A stretch of DNA of 64,000 nt from Paralvinella palmiformis (lineage: Eukaryota > Annelida > Polychaeta > Terebellida > Alvinellidae), in assembly GCA_025642065.1 (NCBI GenBank), contig JAODUP010000550.1:303501-367500 (forward strand), in the 5' to 3' direction. Below the pieces are notes generated by a model. The model was not told where the DNA came from, did no database searches, and saw only the letters and a program-made list of their open reading frames with translations. The position numbers and the translations under genes are program-made. Positions within the stretch are counted from its first letter, which is position 1. Each line of letters opens with the position of its first letter. This document shows, piece by piece, positions 14,361 through 59,696 of the stretch.

Positions 14361-14609
14361 TCACAACTGTCCGGCAGTTGTCAGTAGTGGCATTGTAGGA
14401 CTGCTCAGCAGACCCTTACGCTGTTTTTGCTTTCGCTGTTCTGCCATCTGGTCTTTCAGCTCAGCCAGCTGTTGAGATAACGTCTGAACAAGCTGGTTAG
14501 TGGTTTCCAGCTGATGTTGGAGATTCCGTAGTTCATTCTGCTCTCCATCAGCCTCTTCTGCCGCTAAAGACATGGCTCTCATACGAGGAAACCAGTCAAG
14601 ATCTTTGTT
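14361..14609 (-). CDS. ITPR: ITPR last exon (C-terminal coiled coil, stop)
   Basis: 82 codons plus [23 protein letters not shown], then a heptad coiled coil ([37 protein letters not shown]), then a short tail ending TTAGQL. Matches the tetramerisation coil of IP3Rs. Confidence 0.98.
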
Positions 14610-20600: not shown

Positions 20601-20980
20601 GTGCCTATTAACTAAACATATCTGTGACGTTACAGATTTTTTAAACTGATATATTTGCAGCCCTGATAAACTCTACTGTGAAACCAAATACATGGATGTT
20701 TAAATTTAATTTGATAAATGGAAATCTGGAGAAAAAAGAAAATTTACACCCCATATATATCTCCCTGATATGATATGAATGAATACTCACATTCAGTGTG
20801 CCCAAGAGGAGCAGTGTATGTTGTAAACCAATTGAAAAGACAAATCTGAGAATGGTTGATGCTATCAGAGTACGCATACCAGTGTGTCTTGGTAAACAGA
20901 GAACAACAACTAGTGATATCAACAGTGCTAGCCAGATTAATGCTGATAAACGTGGATCAAGTTCTGTAACAGCATAAAGA

Positions 20981-21015
<35 letters not shown>

Positions 21016-26353: not shown

Positions 26354-26394
<41 letters not shown>

Positions 26395-29300: not shown

Positions 29301-30050
29301 TAATTAAATGATATGAATAATTCACAAAAATTCTCATATGCGACAAATCCAGTAACATCTTTGGGTGATAATCACGACGGTGTTAATTCGATTCACCGGA
29401 CAGCATATTAATTTCAGATTAACACTGAATAAAGTGGAACTCATTTATCTAAATAAAAAAAATTATATCAATTACCACATTTTTCTATATGTTTCAAAAC
29501 ACAGAAGGTATTTTAATATTTTATCTGAAGGAGCAGGCCATAGACAAAAATAAACAGTGAAGAAATATAAATAGTAAATATACTATTTAAGTTTGAACCT
29601 CTTGTTGCCATTGAACAAACATACAGAGTATTAAACAGGTGGCTATAAAATGTTATGACATACTTTCATATTCATGTAATAACACACATGATAGGAATTT
29701 ATTTTGAGTTAAACAAGGTTATAATTGTATTAATCAAATCTCTATTTGATATAATTAGAATTCTGAAAAGAATATGATATCACCTATAAAAATATTAGAT
29801 ACACAGTACTTAATGGGATTAACTAATTCTATTTTCGAGATTTAACAGATGTGGCAGCCAATTAATTATATTTATTTGTGAGTGTGAAATGATTCTGCAC
29901 AATTAATATATTTCTACATTTATCATGTTCCAGCATTAAAAAGCGACACAACATGTGATTTAGTAAAGTTGTGTGCATAAATATTCTGTTAAGTATGAAA
30001 TTACAAAGTTGTGTGCTTATAACTATACATGCTGTGACTATTCGTATGTG

Positions 30051-30087
<37 letters not shown>

Positions 30088-30270
30088 ATGTATAAAAGAG
30101 TAAAATCAATAAAATCAATATCCTGCATTATTATTTTTGTGTGTGAAAACTGATGATTCAAGATCTTTCAAATAAATACAAGTAACTGAATTGAAACTGC
30201 CTTATTTGGAATTGTAAAATATGATGTAGAATTGAAACTGACCACCAAAGCTGCACTGTAAATAAAAAGT

Positions 30271-30307
<37 letters not shown>

Positions 30308-33300: not shown

Positions 33301-36300
33301 TGTTAAACTCAACATTTATTTGTTTATTTAAGTACATGTGCAGTTTTTTAATATTTCACACGGTAAAGAGCAGATTAAATAACTCTCCCTCACACACACA
33401 CACATGCACACAAACATGCACACACACATAACTAGCAAATAAAAAAACTAAACGTTTCTAAGAAACAAATGAGGATAAGAATATTGGTTTTTACATAAAT
33501 ATTACAGTAACGTGTAAAATGTAATGTAGACAGAGTTAAATGTACTGTATTGGTAAACAGACTAACATCAAAAATTATTACAAACAATTGAGTACAGAGA
33601 ATTCTCTTCGCTTTGACTGTGCAGCAATTGAGATGTAATTTACAGTAATAGATCCTGTAGTGAAGCTAATGTTATCATTAAAATTAATTTATCTCTGTTA
33701 ATGGCTACATTCATCTGCTAAAAATTGTCAAGAAAGTAGAATGAAAAAAGAAAAATTACAATTACTGAAGAAAATAAACCAGAAATACAGTCTTCAATTG
33801 TGTAATTCTGCTAGAAGTTGACACTAACTTCTTCACGATGATCAGTACCCTGAATGCGTACACACACGCATGCATGCACATGCGCTCACACACATCTATG
33901 AATAGACATGCACTGGCATGATATTTTGAGAAATGTCAGGCTCATTAACTCGATATTAGTACATCAAGACATGTTTTTAAATAGCCTCACCTCCCAATAT
34001 AAGAAATAGACATTTAAACTATATATTAGTTATAACAATAACTCCCAGATTTACTGAAATCATTGATCATCAATGATAATAAAATGATTTGCTTCAGTAA
34101 CAGTAAATAATTGATCAGGTGTTAACTGTCTTCGAGTGGATCTTAATTTGCAAAGATAAATCCTTGAAAATTTGTGGAACACCACATGAAATGCATAAGA
34201 TACTATTGTCTATATTAATTCCACCAGAATCCTGTCTATGTTAAAAAATTCAAGGCTACTGATTCAAACATTACTCATTGATTGGAAAGTGTGTTACAAA
34301 TTAGTCTAGGACACAAAACAGAGATGCCACGACAGAACTACTGTAAGTTCAGACAGCTAAGTAACAACCAGGATTAACAAATCATAAGGTGGTACTTTCT
34401 ATTAAAAAAGCAAAGGAAAACAATCTAGAAATGAACTCACTCTATGGCTGTTAATTGAAAATGATTCAGGAGAAAATCTTTAATTATCCGTTACACGTCA
34501 TTATGGAAGATTAGAAACAGACAGAAAAAGGTTCATTTATGCACAATTCGGAAGTAGCTACAGAGATGTGATTATAAAAGGTACAGCCAAGACTGACTTA
34601 GGATGCCAACACGCTAAACACAATACCATAACAGAACAACATCTACAAATGACAACTTACACCAATGTTTTGTCGTGTGTGGACAATGTCAGAGCCAAAA
34701 AAACGCACCAACATATGGAATGACGAATAAAAAACATATATATTACACATAATAATGACTTTATCATATCGTTTACAATGGACACACAATGCACATTTTT
34801 AATATAGAACAACAATCACCATATGACAAGCATAAAATAATAAATAATTAAAAAGAATAGGTAAAGTTGTAGTTATCTCTTGCTGCACCACTAACAAGGA
34901 GAGACATCGGGTAGAATTAGCCGGCAGGGTTTTGTACAAAAATAACAACTAGATTAAGCCAGACTGGGGATGTATCCCTTACAAACCTGTTACTAATGGG
35001 CAACCACATGGTTACATCAGTAGACCATGAAATAAAGTAAGTGTAACAAATATAATCTGCTACGTCTGTATCTCTTCATTGGTTTCGTTACTCCAGATTT
35101 TGGAAATTTGTTTAATGGCAGATCAGAATATGTGGACAATGTTCCGGTTGGGTAGCACAACTCTCTTCCTACATTCTGTCACATAGATATGGTTAGCACC
35201 ATTTCTATGTGACAAGTACCAAAAGTAGGCAGAGAGAGAGAGCAAAAGTTGTAGTAAGAGTTTTTCCCGAAGATGGTGCATTGCAGATCCCATTACTGGT
35301 GGTCAATGCTGACGAAATGCACAGAATGCAGGCTTGGTAAGTTAAACCTAATTAGACATGGATTACGTCTTGGAAAATTGAGGATGAATGATACTACTTA
35401 AAAGAAAACCCTGGTTCACAATAACAGATGACTGATAGACATTTGGTACTGGATGAACCAGAAGAAAGATGCTAGAGGTGATGATAAGATTGAGGTATGA
35501 GTCATTCTAAAAACCCATCATATACATGAAGGCTGTCTTCCAGTAATGCAGTAATGCAGGAACTTTGTCTACATCCAGCAGGAAAAATATCATCTGAATC
35601 AGAGAGTCTTCACTTGCTATTCATTTCTCAGTGATAAGCAGTGATTAGAAGTGCATCGTCTTTTGGAAAGATCAGATCTGTTTTTTAAACTCATCTGTTT
35701 AAGGCTGCCTCTCGAGTTATGAATATCCAATGACTGAAATTTCATGTTAAGTTTTAGATACCATGATTAGTGGGATTTAACATTTCAACACTATTAAACG
35801 ACCAACTGCAGAGGATTAAATTAGTTGTGTTTTTTTAGGCTGCCTGTGGTGAATGTTCCCATAGCTCAGTGACTTGGCATCTGGCGACAACCGTCCATTG
35901 TTCCAGTTACATTCAACAAAATCTTGTGTACACATTCCTGCAATAATCCTGCCTAATATAATGTACTATATTGCCTGCCTTAAGACTTAGCCACCAGCGA
36001 ATAAATGTCTAATGGTCTAGCATCAATCAGTCAGGAAAGGATTTGGTCTTGTTGCTTAGCCTTGTTTAGTTCCAAGTCACTCATGGATGGGACAGATGGC
36101 TAAATGACATCTGCCGAGTGAAACAACTCCCACAGATATGGGTAAATGGTTCCCACAGCCAAGGAAGTATTATTTTCCAGGACATTTCCAGAACTTTTCC
36201 AAGACAAAATTACCATTTTCCGGGACAAAATATACAAGATTTAAAGGTAATAAATCAGATCTGTGCGAAAAAGGATGTCATATTTTTTCACTGTGTGATA

Positions 36301-39300
36301 GATTATTCACATTTTATATTTTTATCTCCTCACCCCTTTTAGCTGTCTGATTGACCCAATTTTATTTAAATTTTAACTAACATGGGATATTAAGATTATG
36401 TACCATTACTCATTTCCCCTCTTAATCAAAGTTTTCTTCTACAGGCATAATATTTATTCACAGACTGTTTTTGTTCTAAGTGGCAATATTTTTTCCAGGA
36501 CATTTCCTGATTTGGTAAATTTCAAGGACATTTTCTGGACCTGGAAAATTAATTAGTTTTCAGCACAGTGCCATAACCACCATGCCTTCAGAATACCCAA
36601 AGCACCAGTCAGATACTCAAGCCAGAGCCGTAAAAAAGCATTTTACATAAATTATGTTAGCTGCCTGTTGAAGAGTCTACTACCATGCAGTTATAAAGCT
36701 TTGCAAAGCCCTGCAATTATTGGCACTTAGTTATTTTTTAAATATGGTGCACATGCATTGGTGAAGAATTACAGAGACGTCTTTACATTAGTCATCACCA
36801 GACATTAGATTACAACTAGTAATTTCAGTATGTGGCAACACAAACATGGAACCTAGGCCTTTCACACAACATTCGTGAAGTCCAAATATTGAACATTTTA
36901 CGGGAATGAATTCAAACTGATTTGTTTCCAGTACACTTCTTTGCTTAAAAGATTCACATTATTTAAATTAATGCATTTTAATATTAATTTGTTTTAGTAG
37001 TTTTCAAGAGATAATTTTTTTTTTACATGTAGAAGTATCAGTATTAAGTGCTTTTGAATGTTATTGCATAGAAATAGTTATAAAATCTGATAATTATACA
37101 AAATAAAATATAACCCGATACTGGAAAACTGTAAGCTTATTATTAATAAATTACACTAATTGTTTCCTAAACAACAAACTAGTATTTTATCACCAGTGAA
37201 AATTAGTTAGTGTATCTGTTGTAGCGTAAATTTGTCAACAACATATCTGTACTTTTTCAAGTTACACAAGCATCCTAATTAAAATGTACTACCCTTATCA
37301 ATTACAAGCATATAAGCACTTTTGTAGTTCAATCACCAACATACCCCCAGTATATGTACAGTTGTAATCTGATTACTAACAAAACTGTACTGTTGTAATC
37401 TGATCATTACCATACATGTACTGTTATAATATGGCCACTAACATACCTGTACTGTTGCAATCTGATTGCAAACATACCTGTACTGTAGCGCTCTGATCAG
37501 AAAATGGAGAGTTGAAGAAGGTGGTTATAATGTTCATCACCGTTTCGGTCACGTATTCTTCCAGCATTTTATCAGCATGTTTACGGTCATGTGTTGCATT
37601 ACATACCTAACAGCAATGAAATCAATCATAATAACAATTAGTGAAATTTAAGAAAAACAAAGTTGACAGATAAATTACCAGATCTGGTCTATGACTTAAT
37701 ACAAATATTATGAGCCAAGTTAATTAGTAATACTTGGTGTTAGATGATGCACTACGATTACCATGGCCATGTCAACGAGAAAGTTCTCAAACAAGTTCCA
37801 CATGTGATTGCTAGTATATATCTCTTTCATTTCCACCTCTGTGTCGATATAGCAGTGATTTAGAAAGTTGATGTAAGCATTCTTCACCTGAAATGCAAAA
37901 CACTAATATTACCATAAAAACGTCTTTGCCTTGACTCCAGCTGATTGAATGTGCATACCACGAATTGAATTATCCAAAAACGACAATAGACCACCAGAAG
38001 ATGATCTCACTCTAAAATCTGCACACAAACAGGATAAATAAATTATGAATTGTATGAAATATTGTCAGTTAACAGTGGCCTAAAATATTAAATGTGATGT
38101 TTCTGATCCCGTAAACATGATCGTTCCAACATCAACAGAAACCAATACAGACCTCGGGAATACAATCAGGATGTGTAACAACATTGACAATGTCATCCAG
38201 AGGCAGCAGGGAATGACACTTGATCTCGGTGTAGACATTCTTTCCCTCGGTACAACAGGCCAACAATTGTACGAGGTTAATGTGGTATATGAGTGGACTC
38301 GATGGATCCATACGGTGATGTTCTGATTGCATCAGCTCTAACAATGCGTTGAATGATGCTTTGTCATTGTAAAATAGCAACACTTCTTCTCCGACATTTA
38401 CCAGCTAGAAAATGGCACAAACAATTTATGATCAGTCCAAGTTATAACGCAGTTGATGTTAGTGTATGTCGCCCAATTATAGATCTTAGGTGGATGTGAG
38501 AATCCATGCACATGTGCCTGCACACACACACACACACACACCATATGTAAGAAAATGTCTTTTGTATCTTTTACCTTATAAAAATAGATTTAACACAAAT
38601 ATGCATTATTAATGAAAAGCTGCAGTTGAACAAATACAAATAACCAATAACCACCAATATTCTTTATTTTATTTACATATTTCACTTTTATGCACAAATA
38701 AAACTGAAATACACATGACAAAACTACACAAAAACATTATCACACCTCTACTTAAGCTATTTATTGCTAAACTAAATTAAGTGCACAGCTTATCATATTG
38801 ACCGACATGACATAAAATGATAAAGCACTGAGAGTGGAAAACATTTACTAAACCAGAGGCAACTACAGACACCAAGAACAAAGCAATAATAATAATATTT
38901 ATCCTTTATAACTTAAATAACTCACACAAATGCACACAAAAAATCTCGGTTAGATACAAGAAAAGCTTTCTATTAGATACACCACATCTATTTCAGTGCT
39001 GGTGTATCGCATAAACTGAGGTGATGATTTTCTACCATATAACAAGACTAATGTGGACTGTGGCTCAGGCAGAACAACCCAGAATCTTGGCTGTAGACAT
39101 CATGTGATACTTAACACTCCGATGGCTAGCATGTTTATCCGTATATATCAAGTGAAATCTGTCATTTGTTTTGTCTTTGTTTCTGTCCGCTTTTTGCTTT
39201 TATATAAACACAGAATTACGAGTCGAGCACTAACTGTCTCTCTCTGTCTGCATGGCTACTTATAGGCCACAGTTGGTAGTGCATTATACGAAGTCCTAGG

Positions 39301-42300
39301 ATCAAATCAGAATGTTACCTGTCTGTACCCGTCAGATATTTCATCTTTCAGTAAGGAGGGTTCTAATCCGATCATCCCATTTTGCATCGGGCTAGTCCCA
39401 TCGCCACGTAACACCCCCCCAAGATGTGACCAGTGCAAAGTCGAAATAAAGTATCTACCCACTCTAGGATATACTAATATATATATATCTCACTCTGCCT
39501 CTACCAGTCTAACTATCTGTTTGTAACTACTTGGCTGAATGCAATGCACACTGTTTTGTTAATGACTTAAATAATATTGCTCTCAATAACTGGGTGTCAG
39601 TGGAACACACAACTTATGAAGGGCACATAATATACCCCTGAATAACATCACTAACCGATGTCATCATTATATCCTGAGCCTTTCTATTGAATTTTGCCAA
39701 GGTGCTCTAAAGAACAAATCATGGAAGATTCATCATTTAAACAGCCAATAACCAAATGGCATGGACAGATATATTAAGATAAATAGACAGTTAAAGTATA
39801 TTTAAGTACTGATTTACCCGCACTTTCTAAATCATCATAGCACTAAATCAACTGAGAGAGAGAGAGACATTATCACAAAGAACACAAACAATGATTAACA
39901 TAAAAACATACTATGAAAATTACAGTAAAACGAATCATTTATAAATCTTCATAGCTTTTTCAGGTCATATTGTAAATAATATAAAAATAGAAAAAAATAT
40001 GTTAACAAAAAAGAGAAAACATTACAATTACAATAAATATCGAACAAAGTATACATAATTTTATGAAATATTATGACCCGCTGCAAGTAATAGCATGGAA
40101 TAATAAGATTATAAAATTAGTTACTATCTTTTGTAAAGGTTGAAAGACTGGATAATGTTCTCTTGGTTTGCTAGGCTTAAATGTTGATGTACGCACAGTA
40201 GCTTAAATGGATGTAACCATCTTCAGAGGCAATTAGGTGATGTGAAAGATGAAACACCCTTCTGACATAACAAAATCAGAGTTTGAACCCAGGTGCTACA
40301 GACTTGTGGCCAGCCATGCTACCAGTTAGGCAATAAAGGTGCCCCTTAGTTGGCTGGGTAAACTCTTTTAGAAACGATACAAGTCGGTTGAATTTATGTG
40401 GGAAATTTCATGGAAAAAATGTGTGGTTGCCAGGTTGAGATTTGCCAGTTTCCAATAATAACTGCTGGTGGGTGATTATTGTGTGCACCCCAAATGAATA
40501 CAGTGATACCACGATATCCAGTCTTGATCATACACCTCAACAGAAAGCAACTATAATAGGACCGTTTAGTCACTGCATGTACAGTTTTTTCAATAACAGT
40601 CATATGTCATCTATTTTACAGTCCCTCGTCGCCTATTTTAATGGCAGAAAATCGGTCAGCTACTTTGGTTTTAGAATGCACCAAGTACTCCATTTTCCAA
40701 ATTTTTCAGCGGAGAGCCACTAAACCCCCTTGCAGAGAAGGGTCACTACTGTGTTAATATGACTACCACTATCCCACAGCCAGCCCTTCACTACCTAATC
40801 CCCCCCCCTGCATTCATACCTCCCTCCAGCGAACAAGTAAATTTTACAGGCCACCACAGGTGAGCTGCTGCCTACTTTTTGTAAGGGATCATCTACTTTA
40901 TTCCTTACTAAAAAGGCTGCTGCAATAACCAATCTGTTATTCTTATATATTGTAAACTCTGTGTGTATGTGTATGTTTCAAAACAGCCTTCCCCAAATAC
41001 CAGAGAACCATATAACAAAAAACACATCAAGAAAACGGTCATTCCTTTGTGAAAACATTAACCGCCAATCTTCAGTATTCAATTCCAGAAATAAACAAAC
41101 AATTAACAAACAAGCATCTTACCTCTGACATCACAGCATCCTGACAACGTCTGATATAGTTTCCCTCACACTTGACAATAGTCTGCAGAAACTTAAGGTA
41201 TTCATTGTGGCGACCGTGTGACTCAATACACCTAACAAAATGTTGTACTACACGCTCCGTCACTTCATTACACAGCTGTATGTTGTCCTTGAATATGGCA
41301 CGAGCTGTTTCTGCTTCTAGCAACTATTTGATAATAAATAACTTGCTATATGATTACCTGGAGAATGTCTGTCATGATGATTATACTGGTATCTGTCACT
41401 ATTACCATCACACACACACACACACACACAGATAATTACATCTAACATGCAAAATTACAATTATAAATAGAGCATTTCTTGATGCCGTAGATATTATTAA
41501 TCATAAAGAATACTTACACCAGGAGTGAGGAACAGGTCAAGGTTTTTATGGAGAAGTATTTGATTTGAGTGGTTGTTGAGGCAGAAACTCTGTAAGAACT
41601 CATGTGCCAGCTTCATCACTTCATGCATACGGATATCATCATTCTGTAAGTTCATTATTAAATTATATACATTAATACAAACAGACTGAAGAGAAATTCA
41701 CAGCTTCTCATTAAACTATTCCAAGTATAAAAGGTATTCCGGCTGCATAATTACTTACATCACTACACTTTTCTGTAATAATGATTAATTAATGTGTTCC
41801 ACCCAACACTAGCTGAATACACATTATCTGTATAGAATACAAACTGTATTCAAACTACACCTAGTAAATATAACCATATATTATTTATATTACTGTAAAT
41901 AATATATGATTGTTAACCTTTTTACCATATACCTCAGATATTACAGGTTCTCCATTCTAATTCCAGTTTATGCTGTTAGCCTTCATCATGTATGTTTAAT
42001 GATTTGTTATGAATGATAACTTTTCTTTATCATAATACTATCGGCCACAAACCTTATCATATGCTATCTGTAGTAATTCCAATACCACATTATGGGCTCC
42101 CATGTTTCTCAGCAGTCTTTGTTCATGTTTTCTTGGTTTTTTGCCTAAGGTTGTTGTCTGGACACACAATGAGGTTAAACGTTTCAGAATTTCCTTAATA
42201 CTCTTGTAATTCTTGGCAGCAGCTGGATCCATATTCTGACCATGATCAGTATCTACGACCAGAGGACCTTCTGCATCCTAAAATATTATTTTATAAAACA

Positions 42301-43738
42301 ATCGGAGATGAATCATAGAGCCAAATGGTTTATATGGAAATAACAGTATAAAGTTGGTAATCAATTAAACAATCATATTTGCTTCAGCTGAAAATGAAGT
42401 TATTCAATTCATTATTTTCCAATATTAAGTATCCAGTATTTGTGAGGTATATTACTCATTTAACTTTATCTAATATTTACATATATGTCTTATGCTAATA
42501 AATATCTTTTCAAAAATTAAAAACATCTGAGAGACTTCCAACACTTTTAATATGAGTTAAAACTTTATTAAATACTTATAATGCTGTACCTAATGCTGAA
42601 AACATATCGAACACTCCTGAATGTATTACCATTTCTAATAAGTCAAATATTTGTAAATGCATCCAATGCTAACAGTATGTCAAATATATTGAAGTGTATT
42701 TAAGCGTCTCAGAATTTATAATGTTTAAAATGCTATAAATCTACCATCTGATTAGGATCATGTCTACATCTTACTGTATTCTGTTGTTCTCCATCTTTCT
42801 TCTTTTTCTTGATGTCTTCGCCTTTAGACTTGTACACCCAAAGTTCTGACTTCTCAACGCGACCGCGGAGATCATCGAGATCTGTCTTAATCTGCTTGTA
42901 ATTATCCACATCGGATTCGGATACTAAAAGCTGAACCTAGTTCAAACATACACAAAATACCTGTTTATAACAACCATTGTTAGGGAAAACAAATTATCAC
43001 CAAGGAATGTTCATTTCCTCTCTTTTCTTGTTCATATCAAAATATTAACAACATAATGCCAAATAATTGTTCATAAACAATCTATCAAACTGATTCACAT
43101 ATAATACCTATAAAACACTTGTACCTGCAATAATATGTACCTGCAGTGATTTCTACATGTGGCATGTAATGCAGGGAGTCCATTAATAAACATAACACTT
43201 TTAAGAAAAAATTAGATTTATTCGTATTTAACCAAAAACGTTCAAAATGTGTATCATCATTATATTTGGCAAACAAACATTGTTTAGCCCACCAAAATAT
43301 ATGTTCATGACATTACACAATAGAATGCATTTTTTAAACTTGTTGTGAAAGATTTACAAGCAAATCCACCATATCTGTGATTATATACAAAATATGACAT
43401 GTGATATCATTGGGCCAGTGGTTATGTTCTATCATGGTTACCACAGCTGAGAAAATATTATTTTCCAGGAGATTTCCAGGACGTTTCCAATACAAAATTA
43501 CCATTTTCCAGGACAAAATATACAAGATTTAAAGGTAATAAATCAAGATCTGTGCATATTTATTCAAGGTATGACAGATTATTGACATTTTTATTGTACA
43601 TCCTACTCCTGACCCTTTGTAGCTGTCTGATCCACACAGTTTTATTTATATTTTAACATGACATTTTGTAAAATTCAAGGACATTTCCAGGACCTGGAAA
43701 ATTAATTTGTTATTTTCCAGGTTATGTGGGAACCCTAT

Positions 43739-43780
<42 letters not shown>

Positions 43781-46700
43781 CTTTACCATGACTGCTTCCA
43801 TTAAACAACCAAATACATGTACCATCATATTAAGGGTGCATAGATAACAGAAGGTTTTCAGTGTACTTTGATTCTCATCGCTGTAACAGATGAAATTTAA
43901 TTAATCAATGTATTATAGTATCAACATGTTAACATTTCAACAATCGCAGAAATAGAGTTAGTATACCTGCTTGAAGGCTTGTAGCACTTCCTGTCTCTGA
44001 CTAAAATGTCTAAACAAGAGCTGAAGAGCACCAGACACTAATGGTGGATAGTTATGCATAACTAGATTCAGAAGCACTCTGAGAAATGTTCTGCCACCTT
44101 GTCCATCCAAGTCTAACTCCGTTGACTCAGCACTTTGAAAAAAAAAAAAAAACATAATTAAAGGTCAACTGACATTTTAGAATGTTCTCAGGCCTGCTAC
44201 TTTCTACACAGTTCATGAAAAATAGTCTATCAAAATGTATTAAATATATAAAACTAAATAATAAATACTCTTATTAATGTATGCGTCTACTTAAATTCAT
44301 TAACAGCTGCCAAACATCGCCTCAAGTAACCATTATTAATCAGAATTTATGAACACTGAACTGAACAAAGCTGGTACCGTTATTTGACATCTAAACTAAT
44401 CAGCACAGAACATTTCAAACACCAATATTAAAACAAAAGAACACACCTTCCCCCAAATATATCTTCAGCTTGAGCACCAATACTTTCTAAGTCTAATCCT
44501 GAAAAACAGAAAGAACAGCAATATAAACAGAATCTCGTAAAACCAGAAAAGCTTAACGTTTTCCATTCTTCTCACAACCGTTACCAATTATATATTATTG
44601 CAAATAAAATGTACTAAATGTGTTTACAGAAAGGAAATAGAATAAGCAGAGATGCTATTAAACTTGCAATAACAGTGACTAGTGTGTAGTAAGTGTGATT
44701 AAAGAAAATTAAAATATATTAACAAATGGTACTAACGTAAATATTAATATAAATGGTTTATTACACTAAAATATACTGAGACATAACAAGGCAGCAGGTA
44801 AATATATTGAATATGGTCATAAAAATAACAGCTGAATAACTAAAAAGACATCGAAATTAAAAATGATGTTTAACAATATTATGATAAAGCTTAGTTCGGT
44901 AACTAAAGCCTGCTATTTTCTATTGTACACTTGAAAGGCAGGATTATATCAATGTAAGCACATAATTATTAACTATGTAAAAAATTTATATATTTAAAAT
45001 ACAATACAAGAATAAAACTACAATCAATGATACATTTGAGAAATTTGTACAATGACAGCACATCAACAACAAAATTAAATATAATTATTAACCAAACAAT
45101 CAGCTAAAATATAATCTTATGCACTATTTCCGTCTGGTGAAAAGTTCAGATGTGTTCTATGTAAAACCAAATGAATCCAGAAAAGTTCCATAACTGATTC
45201 AGCATTGTGCTTTAATAATATGTAATTAAAATTTTTATTTTGTACGTAGGCACACAAATTCCCGCGCTTATAACTGCTGTTCCAGCAATGGGCTAATAAA
45301 CTATATCTTATTTTATCAGTTTATTTTCAATAATCATTCATAGTTCCTGTCTTAATGCTTCTTTATAATGGTTTGTTCATTTTAATTACATTATCAGCTC
45401 AACATTGTGAAAAACTATAAGTCGAGTTGTTTAGTAGCCTAAGTGCTACTAAAAACTAGGACACGTGGCTGATTGGACAACTGCCTAGAGAAATAAATCC
45501 CATAAATACGGGTACACACTGGATTCGAACCCACAGCCTGAAGGTTTGCAGCACAGTGCTCTAGCCACTGCAATATCAGAATGCTCTCATAAACGATGAT
45601 GGTCCATTTCTTTAAATTAAATTTTTCCGCATAAAGCCAGAAAACATCTGCAGGATGTAGTTCTAAAGAACAATACCAATCCATTCATTTTGGAAAAATG
45701 GGTTAGTTCATTAGTTGTGTCTGAAAAAAGACGGAGAACTCCTGAAATAAGATTTGAACAGAAGCATACCCCAGGGATACTTCAAAAGAATAGTCTACGT
45801 GCCAAATGTAAGAAAAGAATTTAGTTTTTAGTATTATAGCTAACTAACCATTTTAACTAACAGCTTTTAAAAGGATACCTCCCAGAACACTACAACAGGA
45901 AAACAAAAATGTCACACTACCTAATAAGGAATACACACTAACCACGTCATATATGAACTGGCATACATAACACAAACCTAGACACCACACTTAAAACAAC
46001 AGAAACCAGTTAACCTGATAATGAACCATCTTTGTTAAGGTCATAGCGTTTTTTGAAGCCACACAAAAGGCAAGCAATGCGATAATCCAAGCGCACATTA
46101 CACAGATACTGAAAATATAAAATCGTATACTGGACATTGAATGACGTGGTTCATCAAATGGCACAATAGCTAGTTACTGTTAAATGGTTTACAACGGTAT
46201 GACTGTATAACTGGAAGGGGTCATTGGAGAAGGATGAAGATGGTGATGATGTGCATAACTGGAATAAACCCAAAAGTGACTCGACAAGCAGCCAATCAGC
46301 TACAAGCTGCCTAAAGAAACGATAAAAATTTAAACGTTTGCTCAAAAATAGGCCATCATGGTAAGAAATCTTTGAGATGATATAAACGAAGTTACCTGAA
46401 ACATTTATGTACGAAATGAGTTCAGAATATTTTCACATTTTTCTCTGCACAAATGCTCAGATTTTAATATGAAAATAAAGCTCTGTTTCCAAAATGAATC
46501 CAGCTTTTGCATTTCTGATTGATTAAATAAGACGATTAATCGGCGATAATTCCAAACCAACCAGTGAAGTTTTATGACCATGTAATTGACTCGAGCTTTA
46601 TGCAAAGGCAGAACAACATCTTGCAGGGTTATTATCCGGAACATAGCTGGGTAGTTCAGGGCAAAGACATTACTTCAACGAGTTCTCAATGCCAAATTAT

Positions 46701-49700
46701 GTCAAAATCTGAATCGAAACCGATGTGTTAACTTTTACTGGTTGAATGCGAGCTATGGAGTTAATGAAGTGTATTCCAAGTCTGTCCAAAGCTAATTGCA
46801 AATTTCAAAGGATTTCCAGGGTATTTTTAGCCAAAATACAAGTCAAAGATTTCAAGAAGCTGTGTAAATCCTTTAACTTCCATGAATGCATTACTGATAT
46901 CAATAAAAAGATGAAATTCCTTGCTTTCATAAGTAGTTTTGAGAAACTATTCAATCAACTCAGGCCTCATAAAATTTATCAAGATTTAGGAGACTGGAAA
47001 ACGAAATTTGTAATCTTTCGAATTAAGATAATTATTTAGCAGAGAATAACTTTTTGAAATACAAGTACATAAACTACAAAGAAGAGATAATCTAGACCAA
47101 AGTATTAAACTTGAGTTTGCCCAACCCCCGTACTGGGTGCACCAATGATCTTGATTCTTTTCGAGGATATTGGCACAACAGAAGTTTTGTAATTATTAAT
47201 AATTATTATTATCATCAGTGTGTCTTATTGTTACAGAGTTCTCTATAGCATTGTTCATAATGGCTGGAGCTTCACATAACATGGCATAAATGTTGTATTG
47301 TTTCAAATAAAAGCCTGAACCATTGGTGTATCAAAAATATACAAAACCTCCACAAATTATCAGGTTAGATGCTTTTGACTAAAGTGTTCTAACACTGAAA
47401 AGTAGGCACACACACTTCCCATATCTACATCTACATATATTTTAACTTGATATCTAAATAGAAAAGTGAACATTTACCCTTATCCATGAGTTCTGATGTG
47501 AATGAGACAGGCATTGGCATATAAATCTTCAAAGATGCATGCATGTAACCAGCCATTCACACAGTTCCCACAGCCAAGGAAATATTATTTTTCAGGACTT
47601 ATCCCAGACAAAATTACCATTTTCCAGGACAAAGATTTAAAGGTAATAAATCAAGGTATGCATGAAAAGGCATATCCTATTTATTCAATGTATGATTGAT
47701 TATCGACATTTTTATAGTACAGCCTCCGCCTCACCTCTCCTAGCAGTCTGATCCACCCACTTTTATTTAAATTTTAACTAACATGGGAGATCAATATTAT
47801 GTACAGGCATTCTTTTTCTTCTACAATCGAAGTTTTCTTTACAGGCATAATATTTTTTCACAAGCTTTTTTTGTGTTCTAAGTGGATTTTTTCAAAGGCA
47901 GTATATTTCCCAGGACATTTCCCGATTTCTTTAATTCAAGGACATTTCCTGGACCTGGAAAATAAATTTGTTATTTTCAAGGTTGATGGGAACCCTGATT
48001 CAAGCAAAATCAGGTATACAATGACCAGTGTTAGAAATAAGAGGCCCGGTGCCTGGGACTGACAATTCTCAACTCAGGTTTGCATCTTTCTATATTTGCC
48101 GGCCCAGTGGACGTGCTGATATTCAACCTATTCTACGTTTCGCACAGCAAATAAAATGGTTAAAGTAATAAGAAACAATCATTTATTCAAAGAACGAATG
48201 CAGACTTTTATATGTCATTTTCAACATGTGTTTTGCTGCCAATGTAGGCAAAAGTGAACTTGAGTCTCATCATGTGTGCGGATAAGTCATTGTCTTTATG
48301 TTTTAAACATGCTCTTGTTGACATATGAAGCATTGGTACGACGGTGGTTATTGGCCAAATATCAGTGGAATCTCCTTTTTCAACCAACCTGAAATCTTTT
48401 TACATACATGGCTCTGATAGTTACCTGGGGAAATTTAAATCTCACACTCTTGCACAGCAATCTATCGGCAACATGTTACATCATTATTTGGGGATTGAAC
48501 CTCACAAAAGGAAGCAAAGAATTGAACCCATAGTAACAAATAAAGTATATGATGCCACCAAAAGGAAAAGAAAAATAGTTCCCTCATGGAAAGCTGAATT
48601 TTCATAGCTTCTGGTCAATGAAGAGGTAAGCTTAAATATTTCAGATCTACCAATATTATTGATTCATCATGCACAACATTCAGGCTTTGCTAAATTAGAT
48701 ATCATTCACCAAACTACACCTGAAATGATCCCATGAATTTATTGGATAGGGCAAAACTGATTAGGCATTGGGAACTGGCTAACACATTTCAGAAAGGCCT
48801 CTAATGAATGTGGATTTTCACAGACGAAAATCACTAAGTCTCAGTATCGCAACAAACTGACATCGACCACAATGATGATGATGATGATGCTGATGGCAAT
48901 TCAGCTGCACTCCGCTAACATTTCTGGCTTTGATGCTAAGCAGGTAAATTCACCAGTGGAACCTACACCACTACAGAAGGACCAACTTCATGGAGGCATG
49001 TAGGCAAAGGGCTATGCCTGAGACCCAGGAAATAGAAGATGCATTGAAGGCAGCAGCGGATAGTCAGGCAGACGATGCTGATGAGGCAGTGATCACAATT
49101 GGCTCAGCTCCATGCTCTGATTGTGATTCAGATTTTTCTGATCTAGAGGAATCCGATCCTCCCAGTGAATGAACAGTTCAAAGAATATTTAGTTTTATGT
49201 TGAAATAAAGATGGATGTTTAATAACTAAATCATGAGTTGCTTTGTATTTCACATGGTGAAAATAAGCTTAGGACTATTTCATTGTTTTTCTTGACCTCG
49301 CCACACCTACATTTGCAAACCCATTTCCATTGACAATTATTCACCCCATCATGCATAAATGATAAACTATTATGCCCTCTTGCCCCAGTACTAGTATTTT
49401 TAGCCTATACATTACTCCCAACTATTTTTATGCACATCCAGCTTGCTTTACAGTTTCTGGGCTGCTATTTTCTTGCAGCACCTGGGCCGGCAACGTTTCA
49501 TCAAGGCTGCCAACTTTTAGGACTTGCCAGCCCTGGTGTCTGATGATTTTTTGAGGGAATTTTCGACGATACTGACAATGACTATGTGTAATTGATCTCA
49601 TTTACATTTTTACTATAATATATCCAATAAATTGATCCTAATACTGATGATATTAACTTAAATAAGTTAATACAGATAAAAATAAATATCATTGATTGAA

Positions 49701-50327
49701 CAATATACAAATGAATTTAAGTCAATTCAACATACCCCACATACTTTTTCATGACAACAAAGATCTGATCAGGCTGACTGAATTTGATCATTTTTATAAT
49801 TGGTTTCCAGATTGAAGAAATGGATTGTTGTCAGTATCATTATCTGGGACTGGCTGGTATTTCAGTGGGTCCACAGCAGACAAGGGGTCAATTCAATTCT
49901 GGAATTGGTGGTCAATTCCAATTCCAATATTGATTATTTAAATAAAATGGAATTGAGAAATTTTGAATTGGAATTGAGAAATTTTGAATTGGAATTGAAG
50001 TTTCATACAAACAAATTTAATCCAGAAATTAATTTACCATTTTTACAATGTGTTAGCAATATACTGGAACCATAATGATCCAGAACTTCCTTTGTTTTTT
50101 GGGGGGAGAATCCCCAGGCTGTTGCTTATTTAGCACAGCCTCTATATTGGAGTGGTTGAGAAATCTCCTCCCCCACCACTCACAGGGGAGCAGTATGGAA
50201 AGATGGAGCCGAAATACCCTGAGGGTGGTCACTGCCAGAGTGTTTTACATCCTCAGGGGTCTGTAACGTCCCCGGTTATTTTTATTTTCAGTGGTCAGCC
50301 ACCCACGATAACTCCAGAACTTTGGTT

Positions 50328-50375
<48 letters not shown>

Positions 50376-50897
50376 TACATACCCCAAGTGAGCATTTAAC
50401 CAATTAAAATGATCTGGATACCGTGAGCTCCACCCCCAACACTGTGACACCACCACATAGCATACCTGTAATCTATATAGAGATATTGCTATTTAGGAAT
50501 TAATTAATTTATCATCTCATCGGGAATGCCAATCTGGAGCAAAATCTTTCCCCTCCTTTCCTAAAACTGTGACTACTATAGCCTGTCCCCAGACCTAACT
50601 GTTTTAATAACCATTTGAAATCTTTTGTAATATGTCATTGGTTTAGTACGGAACTAGAACATTGGTTTCAAGGCTTCTACTGGACAGTGGAATATAAACA
50701 CATCTTTGATGATTACAAAATATACTTTTATATGGGGATTCACACAAGACTATGATCCACCACTTGATATAATCAAAATATCTCTTTAGCTAAAAGCGGC
50801 TTGTGGTTAGGCTTGCACCATTTTTTTACCAGATTAACATTTACATGTGGTGTTACCAATATACTGGAACCAAATTGATCCAGAACAATGCTTCCTT

Positions 50898-50949
<52 letters not shown>

Positions 50950-53900
50950 TATGCACACTGACTGTGGCACCCCACATGAGCATTTAACCAATTAAAATGG
51001 TCAGGATACCATTGGCTCCGCCCCCAACACGGTGACACCACCACATAGCATGCATGTAATCTATATAGAGATATTGCTATTTAGGAATTTACCCCCATTC
51101 AATGTTTAGAACAGGCAAAAAATAAATAAACCCACAAATTAATTTACTATTTAATTATTTAATTCAGAAATATTTCTTCCAAAACAATCCTATTTGGAAT
51201 ATAAACTACTCGGAGTAGGTATTCCAAGTAGGTACTCGGCGTACCTACTCATGGTAATAAGTATTAGGCAAAAAAAGAGGCAGAAAAAACAGAATAGGAA
51301 AATTTGGAATTGGAATTGATAAATTTCAGGTGGAATTAGAATTGACCAAATGGAATTGACTCCATGTCTGGTCCACACGACTTGAAAATAAAATAAAGAA
51401 GACCAAGTTGTAGGCTTTATTTGTGGCCAGAACACAGCTGGGGGGGCGGGTGATGAGTTCAAGTGGGGATGTCCGACCCCCCTCCAGTCAAAATGTTTGG
51501 AGAAAAACAACAAGAGGTGACAAGAATGGGAGAATAGATGATATACCCTTATAAACCAGTGTTTTATTGCAGAAGGAGCTTAATTTCAAAGTATAAAAGT
51601 CACCAGAATACAATTACACGATCAATTGTGATAAAATAAGCAACTAAAAATACGGACAATCTACCCTTTCCCTAAAAAGGAGATTTGTCAAAAAAAAAGG
51701 AGGAAATAAAGTAGATCTAGCAGAATCATGAAATTAAGGAGACGTGGACACACTGTATTTTAACTTATTGTTTGGGTGTTAAATGAACATTTTGAAGTTT
51801 ACTACTGAGTATGTTGCAGAAGCACCCTAAATGTCTGGAAGGATATCAACCATCTTCCAGAAAACAATGCCACTACCTAATGCAAATCAAGTTATTTACG
51901 TGAAGCAGACGAATCACTGTTAGTGTTAGTAGTTCATTAATAAAAAGAATCATTACACTGCAAAAAGAACTTAAATAAAAAGGATGCATCAACATGCAAA
52001 TGTTGGCGATTAGCATAAATTAACAAGAACATATCATTACAAGCAATGGTTTGAGTATCAGGTGTGGAAACGTGCCTGGTCTGGGTTATTGTCAAAACAT
52101 GCAGCAGGACAGCAGCATTAAGCAAGAAGCTGGAAAATGGTGACATGGCACATGTCTGAAAGGTAAGTGGCCAGATGAGTGCTTCATCATGTCGAGGATA
52201 GTTACCATCTGTTGTCTTTGTAGAATTATTTTCATCAAATTCTCGCTTGAAGATCGACAGCAGACATGAGATACGGTAGTCTAGTCTGACATTGAGGATA
52301 AACTGTTGTGCAGGAAAAGAAGAATATCATACAGAAAAGCTTCACTCAACTGATCAAAAATAAATAAATAAAGGTGCAAACATTCATTTGAATGTACGTC
52401 TCAAGTGGTAGTGGCCGCCATTAAGACTGTAGCTGCAGATACAATGAATAAAAACCTAAACAACTTCTAAATATGAATAAAAATATTCATCATACAAAAT
52501 ACAGATTCTGATTCCATAAAAACAGAAAGCTGTGAATCAGTGGCGCAGGTACACATAGGAAATCAGAAAAAAGTAAACAATCAGAGAAAATTATAAATAA
52601 ACGTAATACACTGCAAATGCCAAGTACGAGGTACCTGAAGAAGAAACAGCTTCAGGTGTTAATTTATGTTCAAAACGTCTTAAATGAAAAATTAGGCTGA
52701 AAATAATGTTTTGAATTAATAGTCACAGAATCTGAATTAAAAATTGAACATTATTTGCATCAACATATTCTATGTATTATTCAGTGGAATTAAGAAATAA
52801 GTTTAGAATTTACTGATCAAACACCAAATAACTAGAATATATTATTTTGCAAACATTTTCATAAGCTGATCATATTATATTACTGAATTAACAGACATAG
52901 AAGCTAAATAACTTAATTAATAATATGACACTATCTCAATTAACATATTCCCCATATAGTTCTGCAGAAAGAAAATAAATAATTAGAAACTGCATGTTGA
53001 ACTCTTGCTCTTTTAATTCACAGAATGTTACATATTAAGGATGGGCATGTTAGAACCAGTAAACAGTCATAACTGGCGATTTTGTCATTTAAATTAAAAG
53101 CACAAATCACGGGGCTTCTCACCGTTGTCAAAACAAACAAATATATGTGCCATTTATTGAGGTGGTCAAATTGAATTCAAATTAACCCGCTTTGATGCAA
53201 GCAGACACAAATATTTGTAAGCTTGAAAATTTTGGACTGAGGCTGGAGTTCCTCCATTTCAGGTGGTAGATGATTTGTGTTTGAAAAGAAAAATGACACG
53301 ATCATAAACGTTCAATCTAGTCATAAATTTAGTACACTTTCAATACAGAATCTGCCTTCTGAAACATGCACAACTTGGATATGATCAGCTAACATTTGTT
53401 ATCAGACATGAAATATTACAATCACACAAGATAATATAATAAATACCTGAAGAATTTCAATTATTTTCAGTTTAGTTTCCATAATCAGACTATCTTCAGC
53501 AGCGGTGTTTGTTATGGATGAGGCCTTTCCCTGTTTGACGACCTCGGCCATGGATACAGGCTTCTGTATTGTATTATTATTGTCACTGGCTGCTCCTAAC
53601 ATCATCCCACTAAGCGACCGTAACATGCCACCACGTCCTGGAATATTAAATCAAACTACAATTACTGTGTGTGCTTATTCACCTATTCTTTTTCACTTCA
53701 CAGCTTGAACACTGAGTGCCAAATTATATCGTTGATTATAATTTATCAATAAATACATTTATCCTAACTATAACAAAACATTTGGATATTGAAAATTATA
53801 ATGATGATGATGATGATGGGACCATTGCGATCAGTGTTGGTGTAAATTATAAGTAAATTACGGTGAGTGACAACATTGATCACTGGAAGAAAAGGTAAAC

Positions 53901-54103
53901 ATGATATGAAGTGAGGAGAAAAGAATAAGAGAAAGAAATATTGAAAAGGTGTAGCTCTGATGGAGACATCTCCCAAACATGGGTAACACAAGTGTTCGAA
54001 GCCGGATCCCAAATGTCTGTAGCATAGTACTCCATCAATCAAAATGTTAGATTTGAAAATAACATACATACACACACACATAGACAAACAGGCAGACAGA
54101 CAG

Positions 54104-54141
<38 letters not shown>

Positions 54142-57100
54142 ATAAACAAATTAGAGTTGTCTAAATCATGCCATATAATTTCAGATTAACTGTGCAAATT
54201 CAAATGGACTTTTAATAAAAAGGTCAAATAAAACAGACACAAGCACTACCCTTTAAATCATCTGGCTTTTATAAGAAAGAGATTTGCAAGCACAACAAAA
54301 CCAATAAAGAAGGTAACATCTAAAATGACCATTGGTTCTGAATTAAACATTATTGAGCAGTAATTTCAGAAATACACATTTTGCATCAGCAATAATTATG
54401 CTGCCTATGCATGACAAATATATTCCAGAACAAAAAAAAGTGTATAACACAAAAACACATACAGACTGATAAACAGAAAACATTGTGATACACAATATTA
54501 TATACACCATCGCTGTGATACACAACACGATATACACTACACAACAGTACGTCGCTTTATATCAACCTGTGGCCTTGTCTTCTGTTTTGCAGCAAATCAC
54601 AAGGAAGCAGAGACGTAAATACAGATGTGGCAGAATAATAGACAACTATGAAATTGTTCGGCGAGACTCTTATGGAATACCGAGTTAATTATCAAACTTG
54701 TGCAACATCAAGTATAATCGAATCTCAATTAACTAAACTGCTAGCAGGACAAGATTAAAATCTGGTTCATTTTCAATTCAGATAATCGATTTCTCTCCAA
54801 ATCTGAGTAGTACTTAAAGGAAAACTTTGTGATCTAGTTAACTAAATTTGAACGAATCAAACCCCAGATAACTTCTCGAATTGATGGGCAATTCCAATTC
54901 CAGAATTGGAACTTCTTTATTTAAAAAATGGAATTTATAATTTGGAATTGAAGTTTGCTACAAAAACATTAAATCCACAAATTAATTTACCATTTAATTT
55001 TTTAATTCAGAAATATTTCCTCGATGACAATCCTACTTGGAATATAAACTATTTGGAGTACGTATTCTAAGTAGGTATTCAGAGTACTTACTCATTGTAA
55101 TAACTGGAATTGACAAAATGGAATTGACCCCATGTTTGCCTGCGAGTTCACTATAATAGTTCCAATGATATGAAACTCGGCTAACAGGTTTCGTTAAATT
55201 AAGACATGATATGGAACGTGCTTTAACAAATAACAATTTACGTCACGTTTAACTCCCCCCCCTTATATTATGCTAACCTGCTATTCCGTTCATTTTGGCA
55301 CAGATAACGGCATCCGATACGCAATCCAGAATACTTAGTAACGTTTTAGTCAATCGAAGCAGGTCACTAAAACTGTAGAATCCAAAATATATCAGATGTC
55401 TGGCTAGCTTCACAACCTGGATAGTTATAAACATAAAGTCATATATCATTCTCTATGTTAAGACTGATACCCAAAAAACAAAGCGGTGGTTTATAATTGA
55501 TCGCATATGTTATTATCACAGAGCACACATCGGCATTCTAAAGGTTGAAATCGATATTTACTTTTCAATAACACCTTCTCTGATATTTGCACAAGCTACT
55601 ACAGTTAGCTCAGCAAAAATTATAAAAAGGCCCTAATCTGGCTCATTAAGTCACTATGAAATGGTAATTAACTATTGTTAGTTCAATTTATATTAAGAGA
55701 AGAAATATCCATGTTATACACTAAGAAATGGGCAATTAATCAGTGTCAGGTCAGTGTAAATTACAAAGAGAAAAGAATTACTTCATCATAAACTAACAAA
55801 ATGGTAGATATACCAAACGATAAGATTTAAACAACACACCATACGGACCGTGCTAAGAAAGCATTTACCTCGTATGTGAGTTTGTTCTGTTCTTTGTCAC
55901 CGAAGGACAAAGAATGACTGACGACATTACAGAGATAGTCCTCCACAAATAGAATGGTATTCGTAAATTTGTACTTTACGGCTTCTTTCTGCGGATCTTT
56001 TGATTTGTTAGACTCGTAGCTGAAAAGTATGGAAAGTATACCGTTAACTAATAACGAATTACATAATTTACACGAACACTATGGCATCATAAAACCAGTA
56101 ATAACATTTAAAAACCGGAATGGCTTAAAGATAAATGAGGTTGAATTAGCCGAACTTAGCACAGAAGTTACACCCTGTAGTTGTGCTATACCAAAGCACT
56201 GTGTGTGTGTGTGTGTGTGTGTGTACATTAGTGCATGCACACTTGATAAGTATCCTTTGAGCCACTCAAGCTCTCCGCTGACATTAACTGCGGAATATGA
56301 ATAAGTAAATAAATAATGGTAAAAAAACACACCTTGAACATGCTACAATCAAGGCATATAAATTGGGCTGGGGGGGGGGGGGAGAGGAACTTAATACATA
56401 CTTTAGACATGATATCTATGATGATAACGGGCACGGGAATATAAACTTAATAATCAAACATAATGCTGGAATATAATACAAAAACGCAGGCGTATTAATC
56501 AATAATGGTTACGCCATACTTCTCACGGATTACTGTCAACGTTATACAACAACTCGTTCTCTCGATTAATCCAATGGAAAAATTCTTCATACTGGCAAGC
56601 CGGAACAAACAAATGATGGGACGTCGGCATTTATGTACAGCAAGGAATGAAGTAAATCTAAGGACAATTTAACCTTGGTCCAAAGGACATGTTTATACAA
56701 ATGTGAATCTATTTTTTGAAAAGGAAATCATAATGGCGCGTATCTAAAAGAAGCCACTTGCGACTATCTATGTGACTCATCTTAAACAAATTATAATAGA
56801 AGAAATCATTCACTGACACACAGAAAACTGAAAACAAACCACTCTTCTTCATTATCATGCCAATGTGTAATTAGTATAAAATAAGTATGTTCAATATTTA
56901 TCAAGTAGGAAAGACTGTAAATGTATACACAGAGCTAAATGTATATATATGTGTGTTCGTGCATATGTGTGTGTATGTGTGTGTTTGTGTGAGTGAAACA
57001 TTAATCAAGAGCAAAATGCAAAATGCATACAGCCTTTTCTTCAGTATTTCTTCATATCTGTAAAAGGCAAATACAGACACTGTCCAATTTCAGATAAAGT

Positions 57101-59653
57101 CATAAAGAACTACACAGAAACCAGACAATAAAACGAAATAATTGAATCTAAAGGTGTTAACTAAACAATCACAAAATAAGAGACGGAACACTTTTCTATA
57201 TAATCTATCGCCTTTTATGCCAATTTTTATACAACGACACCACGTCATAATGTGCAGACAGAACCAGTACAGCAAATATCACAATGGAACCTAATTTAAT
57301 ATTTGAAACTAAAAATATAAAATACAACAGTAAATAACTAAACAAGTGTCATCAGGTAATTGGAAATAGTTCAACCTCCTTCACACTGCAATAATAAAAC
57401 GTCACATTTCTTGACATAAAAAGCACCTTCCCAGATCTAGTACCATAAACCTAGTAACTCTAGTGTGACACCGATTGGCCGCTGACTGATTGGAAAATTA
57501 TATAGAATAAAGACAAGCAATGACAATAACACCTACTCATCAATGGAGATGAGCGCTGGTATTTCAGACCAGAGACGGGCATATTTAACTGGCGTCACTG
57601 TCTCCTGTGGGTCACGGTCTACGTGCATGTGGTGCATCAATCGGCAGAATGAGGCTCGCAGCTCATACGGAAGAATCTCATCTGACATACACCTGAAAAT
57701 AGGACCACTTTAAAACTGACAGCACAAAATATGACACGAAGATCTTCCTTAATGCGTTGCTCAAGAAGATTTATCGGTGGATGGAATGTTCGAGGACACA
57801 GAAACATTGTTTTAGAAAATGCCCCATCAAACAAGAGGAGTGCTTACTCATCAATTGCCTTTTCACTTATGCTAACAGAATTGAACAGGAAAAGTGAAAC
57901 ATAAGCAACATTGAAAGTAAGCATCTTATTAAGAACAAAAACAAAAAAGCATCATGATACTTAAATTGTATTTGCTTTCCGACACTGCTGATGGTGTAGT
58001 AAAGTGGGACCCAATTTTATTTTATTAAAATATATTTGTAAATTATCTATACCTCAATATAAGATCCACATCGAGCTGAGAAGACAGGCTGTTGATTGCC
58101 AAGTATTGTCTATCCAGACACATGTTTGAGAAGAGATCAAGTTGATGCCTATAATAATCCAGGACATCTTTGTCCTCCTTTACACCATCGGATATGGCCA
58201 GATCCCGGATACCTTTAGATTTCATGCTGTTCTCCCAACAGAGCACCACCTCCTCCTCCTCCTCAATCGTAATGATCGGTTCTGATGGCTCCTCACCTTC
58301 AATTTGTTGTACTTCCATTTCTACTTCTACCTGAGTCTTGATGATTCTGAATAATTATTATGCTCACTTATAGTGTGTGTGTGTGCGCACGCATGTGCAC
58401 ACACACACACACACACACTTAAAAGACAAAGTTTTATACAGTCCATAGTTGAAGTTGTGTGTGTGGGCATGCACACACACATGTACACATGCACAAACAC
58501 ACACACACAAACACAAGCATGATAGTAAAACAATTTGCAAATTACTGCATTGTAAATTTCATACCTGGTGTCAATCAGTATATCAGCATTTTTATCAGCT
58601 AGAACAGATTTACATATCAGTTCTTGTGTGACTGGGATGGCAACCTTGTTAGACACACACAGGTCAGACAGATAGTCAAGAAATCTGTAAATATTAAACA
58701 ATATTTCTATGTTGACAAATACACTTAGCACAAGTTGTCGAATGTCAAGTATTGTAAATCTATCCAAAACTATTTCTTAAAATAACTCACAATAATTTTT
58801 TTTAAATAACAAAACCACTCTGGTGTATATGAAGAAAAAAAAACAGTGGTTACCTTGGTTCTCTGTTCTTTCTGACCAAATTGACAAAGGTGTCAATTTC
58901 AGATCCGGTGATATGCTTTTCCAGTAGCTTTCTGTTGTTATGGAGCAATGCTGTAATGGTATCTTCTGCCAAAACATCACAGCCAATCTGAGCTTGCATG
59001 AATGGGAACTTTTTAGCAATGTATTCCTGTTGAATACAAAATGGATTGAAACAGATAAGTGCTTCAAAACTTTATGGATGGGTTGTGTTCAGGTTAATGT
59101 GCAGAAAGAAAAATGCATACGTGAATAATATTGTTTCAAAGTCTTTATGAAGACAAAACATGTTGAAGCTTTTATGATAAATTTCCAACTTCATTGAGAA
59201 TTATTTCCAGTTGAACCAGACTAGTGGAGAACCATATTTTTTATTCTAACAAAGCAACCAAGAAAATGGTAATACACACAGACAGTTTGTTGATAAGTTA
59301 AAATATTCCTTCTTCCCAGATAGTAACCCTTTCCTCACTTCATTTGTAGACTGTGCATACAATTATTGCAATTTATTTTCATTTTTTGGCAATTCATTTT
59401 CTTTGAACAAACACTGATAGTACACTGTTTTCGTGCTGGCCCCAAAATTCAGTTATTTATCCCAAAGTGGAAGTTAATTAATTCCTTAACATTTGTTCAT
59501 AGGGAAGTGAGATCTAGAGTCTGTACTGTTGAAGCAAACTGTTAACTTAGATGACATAGCTCATAAAACCAACATTAGAACAGCCAATGTTAGACATTTA
59601 GGAACTAGCAAATAAGTGACAGTCACCATTGATTATAAAAAGAAACATTTCCC

Positions 59654-59696
<43 letters not shown>

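Follow-up and report, generated by a model that had tools for sequence, protein, structure and literature searches.

Exons 12a and 12b of an invertebrate inositol trisphosphate receptor (IP3R) gene are, judging from their phases and joins, a mutually exclusive pair, and the analysis supports that only exon 12b, when spliced at the stronger of its two donors, makes an EF-hand-type loop together with exon 13. The receptor with exon 12b (isoform B) plausibly has a Ca2+-binding loop that would order loop 2 of the central linker domain, so that the exon pair would act as a splice-controlled Ca2+ switch; the probability of this reading was put at about 0.45. The window, i.e., the whole 64,000-nt stretch of Paralvinella palmiformis DNA that was analyzed, had been annotated before from its letters alone. 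The exon numbering follows that sequence-only reading, and the receptor with exon 12a is referred to as isoform A.

In a tblastn search, exon matches to human ITPR1 were colinear on the minus strand. The homology stays colinear as far as the C-terminal channel region of the receptor, as befits a member of the ITPR family. The solved structure of IP3R1 in the PDB matched the segment of exons 12a to 14 with an E-value of 5.6e-43 and the same segment with exon 12b with an E-value of 9.6e-38. By homology, the gene is an IP3R, and the Ca2+-gated channel suspected in the sequence-only reading was confirmed both by the tblastn colinearity and by the PDB match to IP3R1. Among the matches listed, the top organism-labelled match to the segment was from Lottia gigantea (74% identity), and another homologous fragment shared 82% identity with the segment. 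For the splice junctions, 32 of 42 were kept as confident and the other 10 were dropped ahead of scoring. When exon 12b was used as a query against the species' own genome (594 Mb, 2597 contigs), it was found in one place, this window; three candidates were scored, and exon 12a was not reported by the query.

Other features were noted outside the IP3R gene. Pieces of a non-LTR retrotransposon are located on the minus strand at 7135-9022 in separate ORFs, with 28.6 bits for RVT_1 (cut-off, 29.6) and 33.3 bits for zf-RVT (cut-off, 27.5). Three ORFs adjoining these pieces, up to 11425, appeared by eye to be related to them and had no Pfam match. Two overlapping ORFs rich in hydrophobic stretches, at 1952-2570 on the minus strand, appeared by eye to be part of a membrane transporter gene and had no Pfam match either.

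The order on the minus strand is exon 11, 12a, 12b, 13, and 14 (Table 1), and the flanks tested were AG and GT. Since exon 11 finishes in phase 0 whereas exon 13 opens in phase 1, exactly one of the two intervening exons is needed, each of which runs from phase 0 to phase 1. The joins with 12a only and with 12b only kept the frame open. The joins with both exons or with neither hit early stops, indicating that 12a and 12b are mutually exclusive. They are homologous tandem exons of equal phases whose double use or skipping would be unproductive, and exon 12b, previously described as an alternative to 12a, thus belongs to an either-or pair that is enforced by the reading frame. The two exons are about 6.1 kb apart, which is probably too far for a steric block to be the means of exclusion. 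The inverted pairs in the introns (25 of 32 shown) consisted of AT/CA tracts and two imperfect pairs. One imperfect pair (27 nt, 81%) is located within the intron between 12a and 12b, at 49912-49938 with 51293-51319, and the other (25 nt, 76%) flanks exon 12b, at 44962-44986 and 47182-47206; no docking element is claimed.

Table 1. Positions in the window of the IP3R gene and of the features around the alternative exons
Feature	Positions	Strand	Remarks
IP3 receptor gene	14397..63918	minus	Extent of tblastn matches, running from 63918 to 14397; the gene's 5' part is beyond the window
Exon 11, 3' part	53447..53497	minus	Ends in phase 0
Exon 12a	52206..52302	minus	97 nt; 32 residues and first base of Gly; AG/GT flanks; phase 0 to 1; similar to homologue fragments spanning the site
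Exon 12b	46015..46108	minus	94 nt; 31 residues and first base of Gly; AG/GT flanks; phase 0 to 1; likeness to 12a
Loop positions 1-9, DLNKDGSLS	46016..46042	minus	Inside exon 12b
Weaker competing phase-1 donor, GATG/gttcat	46021..46030	minus	Exon end at 46027; its use would abolish the loop
Exon 13	44447..44498	minus	52 nt; codes for the rest of the loop (positions 10-13, GLDL) and 13 further residues
Exon 14	43967..44132	minus	Carries LDLDGQGG, an acidic motif past the loop that is conserved in the homologue alignment

In comparison with exon 12a, exon 12b has the appearance of a long-standing exon under selection. Among the 23 aligned codons, 2 were identical, 12 differed synonymously, and 9 differed non-synonymously; the differences at the three codon positions numbered 9, 7, and 16. 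The two exons have 14 of the 23 residues in common, 12 of them encoded by different codons, and the stretch NVRLDYRI was preserved with changed codons. In a Nei-Gojobori count, dS was saturated and dN was 0.35. To what extent neutral drift would leave such an exon was simulated with change on the 12b branch only and 20,000 runs per rate. The probability that at least 14 of the 23 residues and both splice sites were retained without a stop was 0.22 at 0.2 substitutions per site, 0.064 at 0.3, 0.012 at 0.4, and 0.0013 at 0.5, and it was 0 at 0.75 and 1.0. The higher rates are the likely ones because the synonymous sites are saturated, but a lopsided history is possible with only one pair to compare. 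The 12b acceptor outscored 10 of the 32 acceptors of the gene, and 10% of the AG sites on the strand scored as high.

Protein searches for relatives of 12b gave no candidates in the short range. In the full-length range there were no candidates either, and no full-length IP3R was returned at all, indicating that the animal proteins searched were mostly fragments and that the absence of 12b from them is weak evidence either way. No 12b-type sequence, DxNxDG, or NKDG was present in the protein matches listed (120 of 494), 81 of which span the loop.

Exon 12b ends with DLNKDGSLS and one base of Gly, and exon 13 finishes the Gly codon and adds LDL. The first base of Asp1 is at 46042, and the last base of Leu13 is at 44488. 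The split loop was proposed in the sequence-only reading and is borne out by the exon ends, the AG/GT flanks, and the phases. Since the loop is split in the DNA, it exists only after splicing. Its 13 residues match the PROSITE EF-hand pattern PS00018, with fitting residues at positions 1, 3, 5, 6, 8, 9, 12, and 13, and the scan of isoform B confirmed the pattern fit that had been noted earlier. The scan also agreed with the statement that the canonical exon cannot form the loop, as there were no matches in isoform A. In addition, no match to PS00018 was detected for 12b spliced at its other donor, in human ITPR1 (2357 aa), in the 120 IP3R-like fragments listed out of 494 (81 of these 120 span the loop), in the 119,994 aa of the six-frame translation of the window, or in the 40 of 42 junction peptides covered.

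The pattern match is above chance, but moderately so, as indicated by the following estimates. By chance, 0.016 PS00018 matches are expected per shuffled IP3R of 2357 aa. When Asp1 and the GLDL of exon 13 are given, the probability that the pattern is filled by eight residues drawn at random is 0.0018, and with a hand-entered polar residue mix the value is 0.005. The information added by exon 12b is confined to positions 2-9, because GLDL is contributed by exon 13 and Asp1 is common at the site (of the 37 letters there in an alignment of 47 hand-picked fragments, 25 are Asp and 9 are Glu). The 12a form has D1, N3, and, one residue later, the DL of exon 13, indicating that few changes would be needed for the loop.

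The profile scores of the loop were below the Pfam cut-offs. The top Pfam match for isoform B was Dockerin_1, with 14.4-17.5 bits against a cut-off of 22.9 and E-values of 0.043, 0.0094, and 0.0049 for the 159-aa segment, 42 aa, and the 31-aa cut, respectively. EF-hand_5 reached 11.2-13.4 bits against a cut-off of 25.9 (E-values of 0.27, 0.094, and 0.054 for 159, 42, and 31 aa, respectively), EF-hand_6 reached 12.9 bits against a cut-off of 25, and the 12b peptide was not listed for EF-hand_1. A true single EF-hand of 25 aa, included as a control, scored 25 bits for EF-hand_1 (cut-off, 25.4) and 20.4 bits for EF-hand_5. Pfam gave nothing for the isoform A peptide, the donor-1 peptide, or all seven of seven shuffles of the 31-mer. 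In a PDB sequence search with isoform B, the closest EF-hand was that of secretagogin, which was not significant (E = 0.03). Matches with E-values of 0.03-1 included calcineurin B homologous protein 2, dockerins, and sarcoplasmic Ca-binding protein, and the same search returned unrelated TtuA chains at E-values of 0.18-0.99.

The loop departs from a standard EF-hand in several respects. The flank of an EF-hand is expected to be hydrophobic at positions -4 and -1, as defined in PMC9177970. Isoform B has Tyr at -1 and Lys at -4, with Phe at -5. The term "canonical" that was given to this EF-hand therefore holds for the PS00018 residues, but not for Lys at -4, Asp at 12, or the Pfam scores below cut-off. 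Similarly, the flanking helices that had been suggested are found on both sides of this site in a low-confidence model of a canonical homologue, but the entering helix has no hydrophobic residue at -4. Two earlier cautions stand: position 12 is Asp, not Glu, and a pattern search of the isoform segment, of the six-frame translation, and of 40 of the 42 junction peptides gave no second EF-hand to pair with it, although a degenerate partner would escape such a search. In calmodulin-type EF-hands, Asp at position 12 usually weakens Ca2+ binding. In dockerin loops, position 12 is Asp and the entering helix is unneeded. F-hands are described as resembling EF-hands (PMC4728124). Dockerin_1 as the best profile, below its cut-off, would fit an F-hand-like site.

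Exon 14 encodes LDLDGQGG about 20 residues past the loop, and all 47 IP3R fragments in the alignment have both Asp residues of this motif. The motif, which isoform A has as well, deviates from the EF-hand pattern. A Ca2+-binding region at residues 994-1059 of mammalian IP3R1 was reportedly described by Sienaert in 1997, and LDLDGQGG may fall within the stretch of human IP3R1 reported as Ca2+-binding.

The segment aligns with residues 977-1094 of human IP3R3, in which the exon pair corresponds approximately to residues 977-1023 of the central linker domain. In this domain, loop 2 comprises Pro1003-Met1023 and loop 3 comprises Phe1036-Met1044 (PMC10613215). Loop 2 is one of four otherwise disordered linkers, which are ordered only between tetramers in inhibited higher-order assemblies (PMC10613215). 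A manual count on the alignment placed Pro1003 after the end of the FKKEF helix, which corresponds to the end of the conserved part of exon 12, and Met1023 just before the stretch matching exon 13. This placement indicates that the exon pair exchanges the helix end and loop 2; the correspondence to loop 2 was absent from the sequence-only reading. A model of the canonical homologue, built from that sequence and 46 hand-picked relatives out of 120 listed, had a helix at 2-38, a loop at 39-46, and a helix at 47-59, with a mean pLDDT of 49.6, so that it is usable for the outline only, and cautiously.

By its sequence, each exon encodes a helix end and the start of the following loop. In isoform A, this is an ordinary polar loop. 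In isoform B, Asp1, Asn3, Asp5, Ser9, and Asp12, together with Gly6 and Leu8, are placed as in a Ca2+ loop of the EF-hand or dockerin type (F-hand), and isoform B would most likely have a compact loop that can accommodate a divalent ion in place of a floppy one. Isoform B would bind Ca2+ here, probably weakly, because it is a lone site with Asp as its last ligand. The bound Ca2+ would order loop 2 beyond the ordering brought about by contact with a neighbour. More speculatively, Ca2+ bound to isoform B would promote or prevent the contact between tetramers and so shift Ca2+-dependent inhibition or clustering. This effect on the contact is proposed because human loop 2 is ordered only at the tetramer contact in inhibited assemblies. 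That splicing controls an extra Ca2+ loop at the tetramer contact, by which cells would choose whether Ca2+ locks or releases inhibited clusters, is rather unlikely. As for splicing as a switch of a Ca2+ loop, as first put forward, the IP3R identity, the either-or pair, and the restriction of the loop to 12b speak for it, but the entering helix and the profile are weaker than had been stated.

It is quite possible that the exons are a real exclusive pair whose effect on the helix end and loop 2 comes from changed packing and charge and that the likeness to an EF-hand is fortuitous. The exchanged stretch changes from a net charge of -1 (16 residues, isoform A) to +2 (15 residues, isoform B), and FIL at the exon start is replaced by YLC, which could alter contacts between tetramers or with a partner protein. 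The position of loop 2 as an inter-tetramer contact in the human receptor and the sub-threshold Pfam profiles are in line with such remodeling, as is the chance occurrence of the pattern in 0.2-0.5% of draws with the flanking residues given, and exons 37a/37b of CaV2.1 are a precedent that works without direct Ca2+ binding. However, the oxygen ligands, Gly6, the hydrophobic residue at position 8, and the acidic residue at position 12 are all in register, which would be unneeded for charge or packing.

The remaining alternatives concern the splicing and fate of exon 12b. The exon has a second phase-1 donor, which was absent from the sequence-only reading. Splicing at this upstream donor (GATG/gttcat, exon end at 46027) would give DLNKDGLDLESI, a product that is four residues shorter and lacks the EF-hand loop. 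The upstream donor is the counterpart of the 12a donor (GATG/gtaact), with the same last four bases, and it has the same phase as the loop-forming donor and leaves the frame open. With a matrix built from the gene's own 32 junctions, it scored -2.0 bits (3 of 32 donors lower; 28% of the strand's GT sites as high) versus 2.8 bits for the loop-forming donor CAG/gttaac with its exon end at 46015 (13 of 32 gene donors lower; 3% of GT sites as high), a contrast that may be somewhat inflated because the 32 junctions were chosen partly with a generic donor matrix. By these scores, the loop-forming donor appears favoured, and a product without the loop is improbable. Still less probable is that 12b is a dead duplicate whose splicing has been lost. 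Its splice sites are of middling strength, with 10 of 32 acceptors and 13 of 32 donors scoring lower, and the protein searches, with 120 of 494 matches listed, found no 12b homologue; however, the frame and splice sites are intact despite saturated synonymous change, for which neutral drift gives a probability of 0.0013 at 0.5 substitutions per site, although 0.22-0.06 at 0.2-0.3. It is very improbable that 12b serves as a poison exon, double inclusion or skipping of which would lower the IP3R level via frame shift and decay. The inclusion of both or neither exon does lead to early stops, but 12b alone gives an open product, and conserved protein sequence would be needless in such an exon, yet NVRLDYRI was kept with changed codons.

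The shut-off of IP3Rs by high Ca2+ is still debated. A mutational study of the CD site inferred that another site or sites must inhibit at saturating ATP (PMC11938044). A natural isoform pair whose differences are confined to a helix end and a loop, at a surface that is ordered between tetramers of inhibited assemblies, would be a clean natural experiment on Ca2+ inhibition.

No such exon pair in an IP3R was found in the literature searched, which was mostly without subscription papers. Splicing is known to change the cytosolic part of IP3Rs (PMC4204029), but the optional exon of the Tribolium receptor, GDSLLDER, is at another place, residues 922-929 (PMC4204029). Ca2+-related elements are also present in cytosolic regions of this channel family. 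Ryanodine receptors (RyR) have an EF-hand pair, but this is located in the carboxy-terminal region (PMC8301844). The CD site of IP3Rs (E1122/E1125 in human IP3R3) is about 100 residues downstream of loop 2, is formed by residues of CLD and ARM2, and is not called an EF-hand loop in the excerpt of PMC11938044.

Exons 37a/37b (EFa/EFb) of CaV2.1 resemble the pair described here in that they are mutually exclusive, are 97 nt long, and belong to a Ca2+ channel, to which they contribute part of an EF-hand-like element, and the two isoforms differ in Ca2+ feedback (PMC7235277). In contrast to the IP3R, CaV2.1 is a plasma-membrane channel, and its element is thought to relay calmodulin regulation, not to bind Ca2+ (PMC7235277). 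The length of 97 nt is the same as that of exon 12a, which is probably a coincidence.

In two other systems, a Ca2+ site is switched by splicing. In alpha-actinin 1 (ACTN1), alternative exons change one EF-hand: the EF-hand domain is active in the 19a form, and the 19b form is Ca2+ insensitive, with fitted Kd values of 44.8 uM for the brain form and 54.7 uM for the non-muscle form (PMC4435478). However, ACTN1 is a cytoskeletal protein, and its alternative EF-hand is part of an established EF-hand domain, whereas the loop described here arises in a channel domain of another kind, and the brain mRNA of ACTN1 includes both exons, which would break the frame in the IP3R gene. Exons 4a/4b of OGDH are mutually exclusive duplicates, one of which has an EF-like DADLD motif that makes the enzyme Ca2+ sensitive (PMC7969005). 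OGDH is a metabolic enzyme, and its motif is without Gly6 and an acidic residue at position 12 (PMC9177970), both of which are present in the 12b isoform. Since alpha-actinin and OGDH already offer examples of a splice-switched Ca2+ loop, the principle itself is not new.
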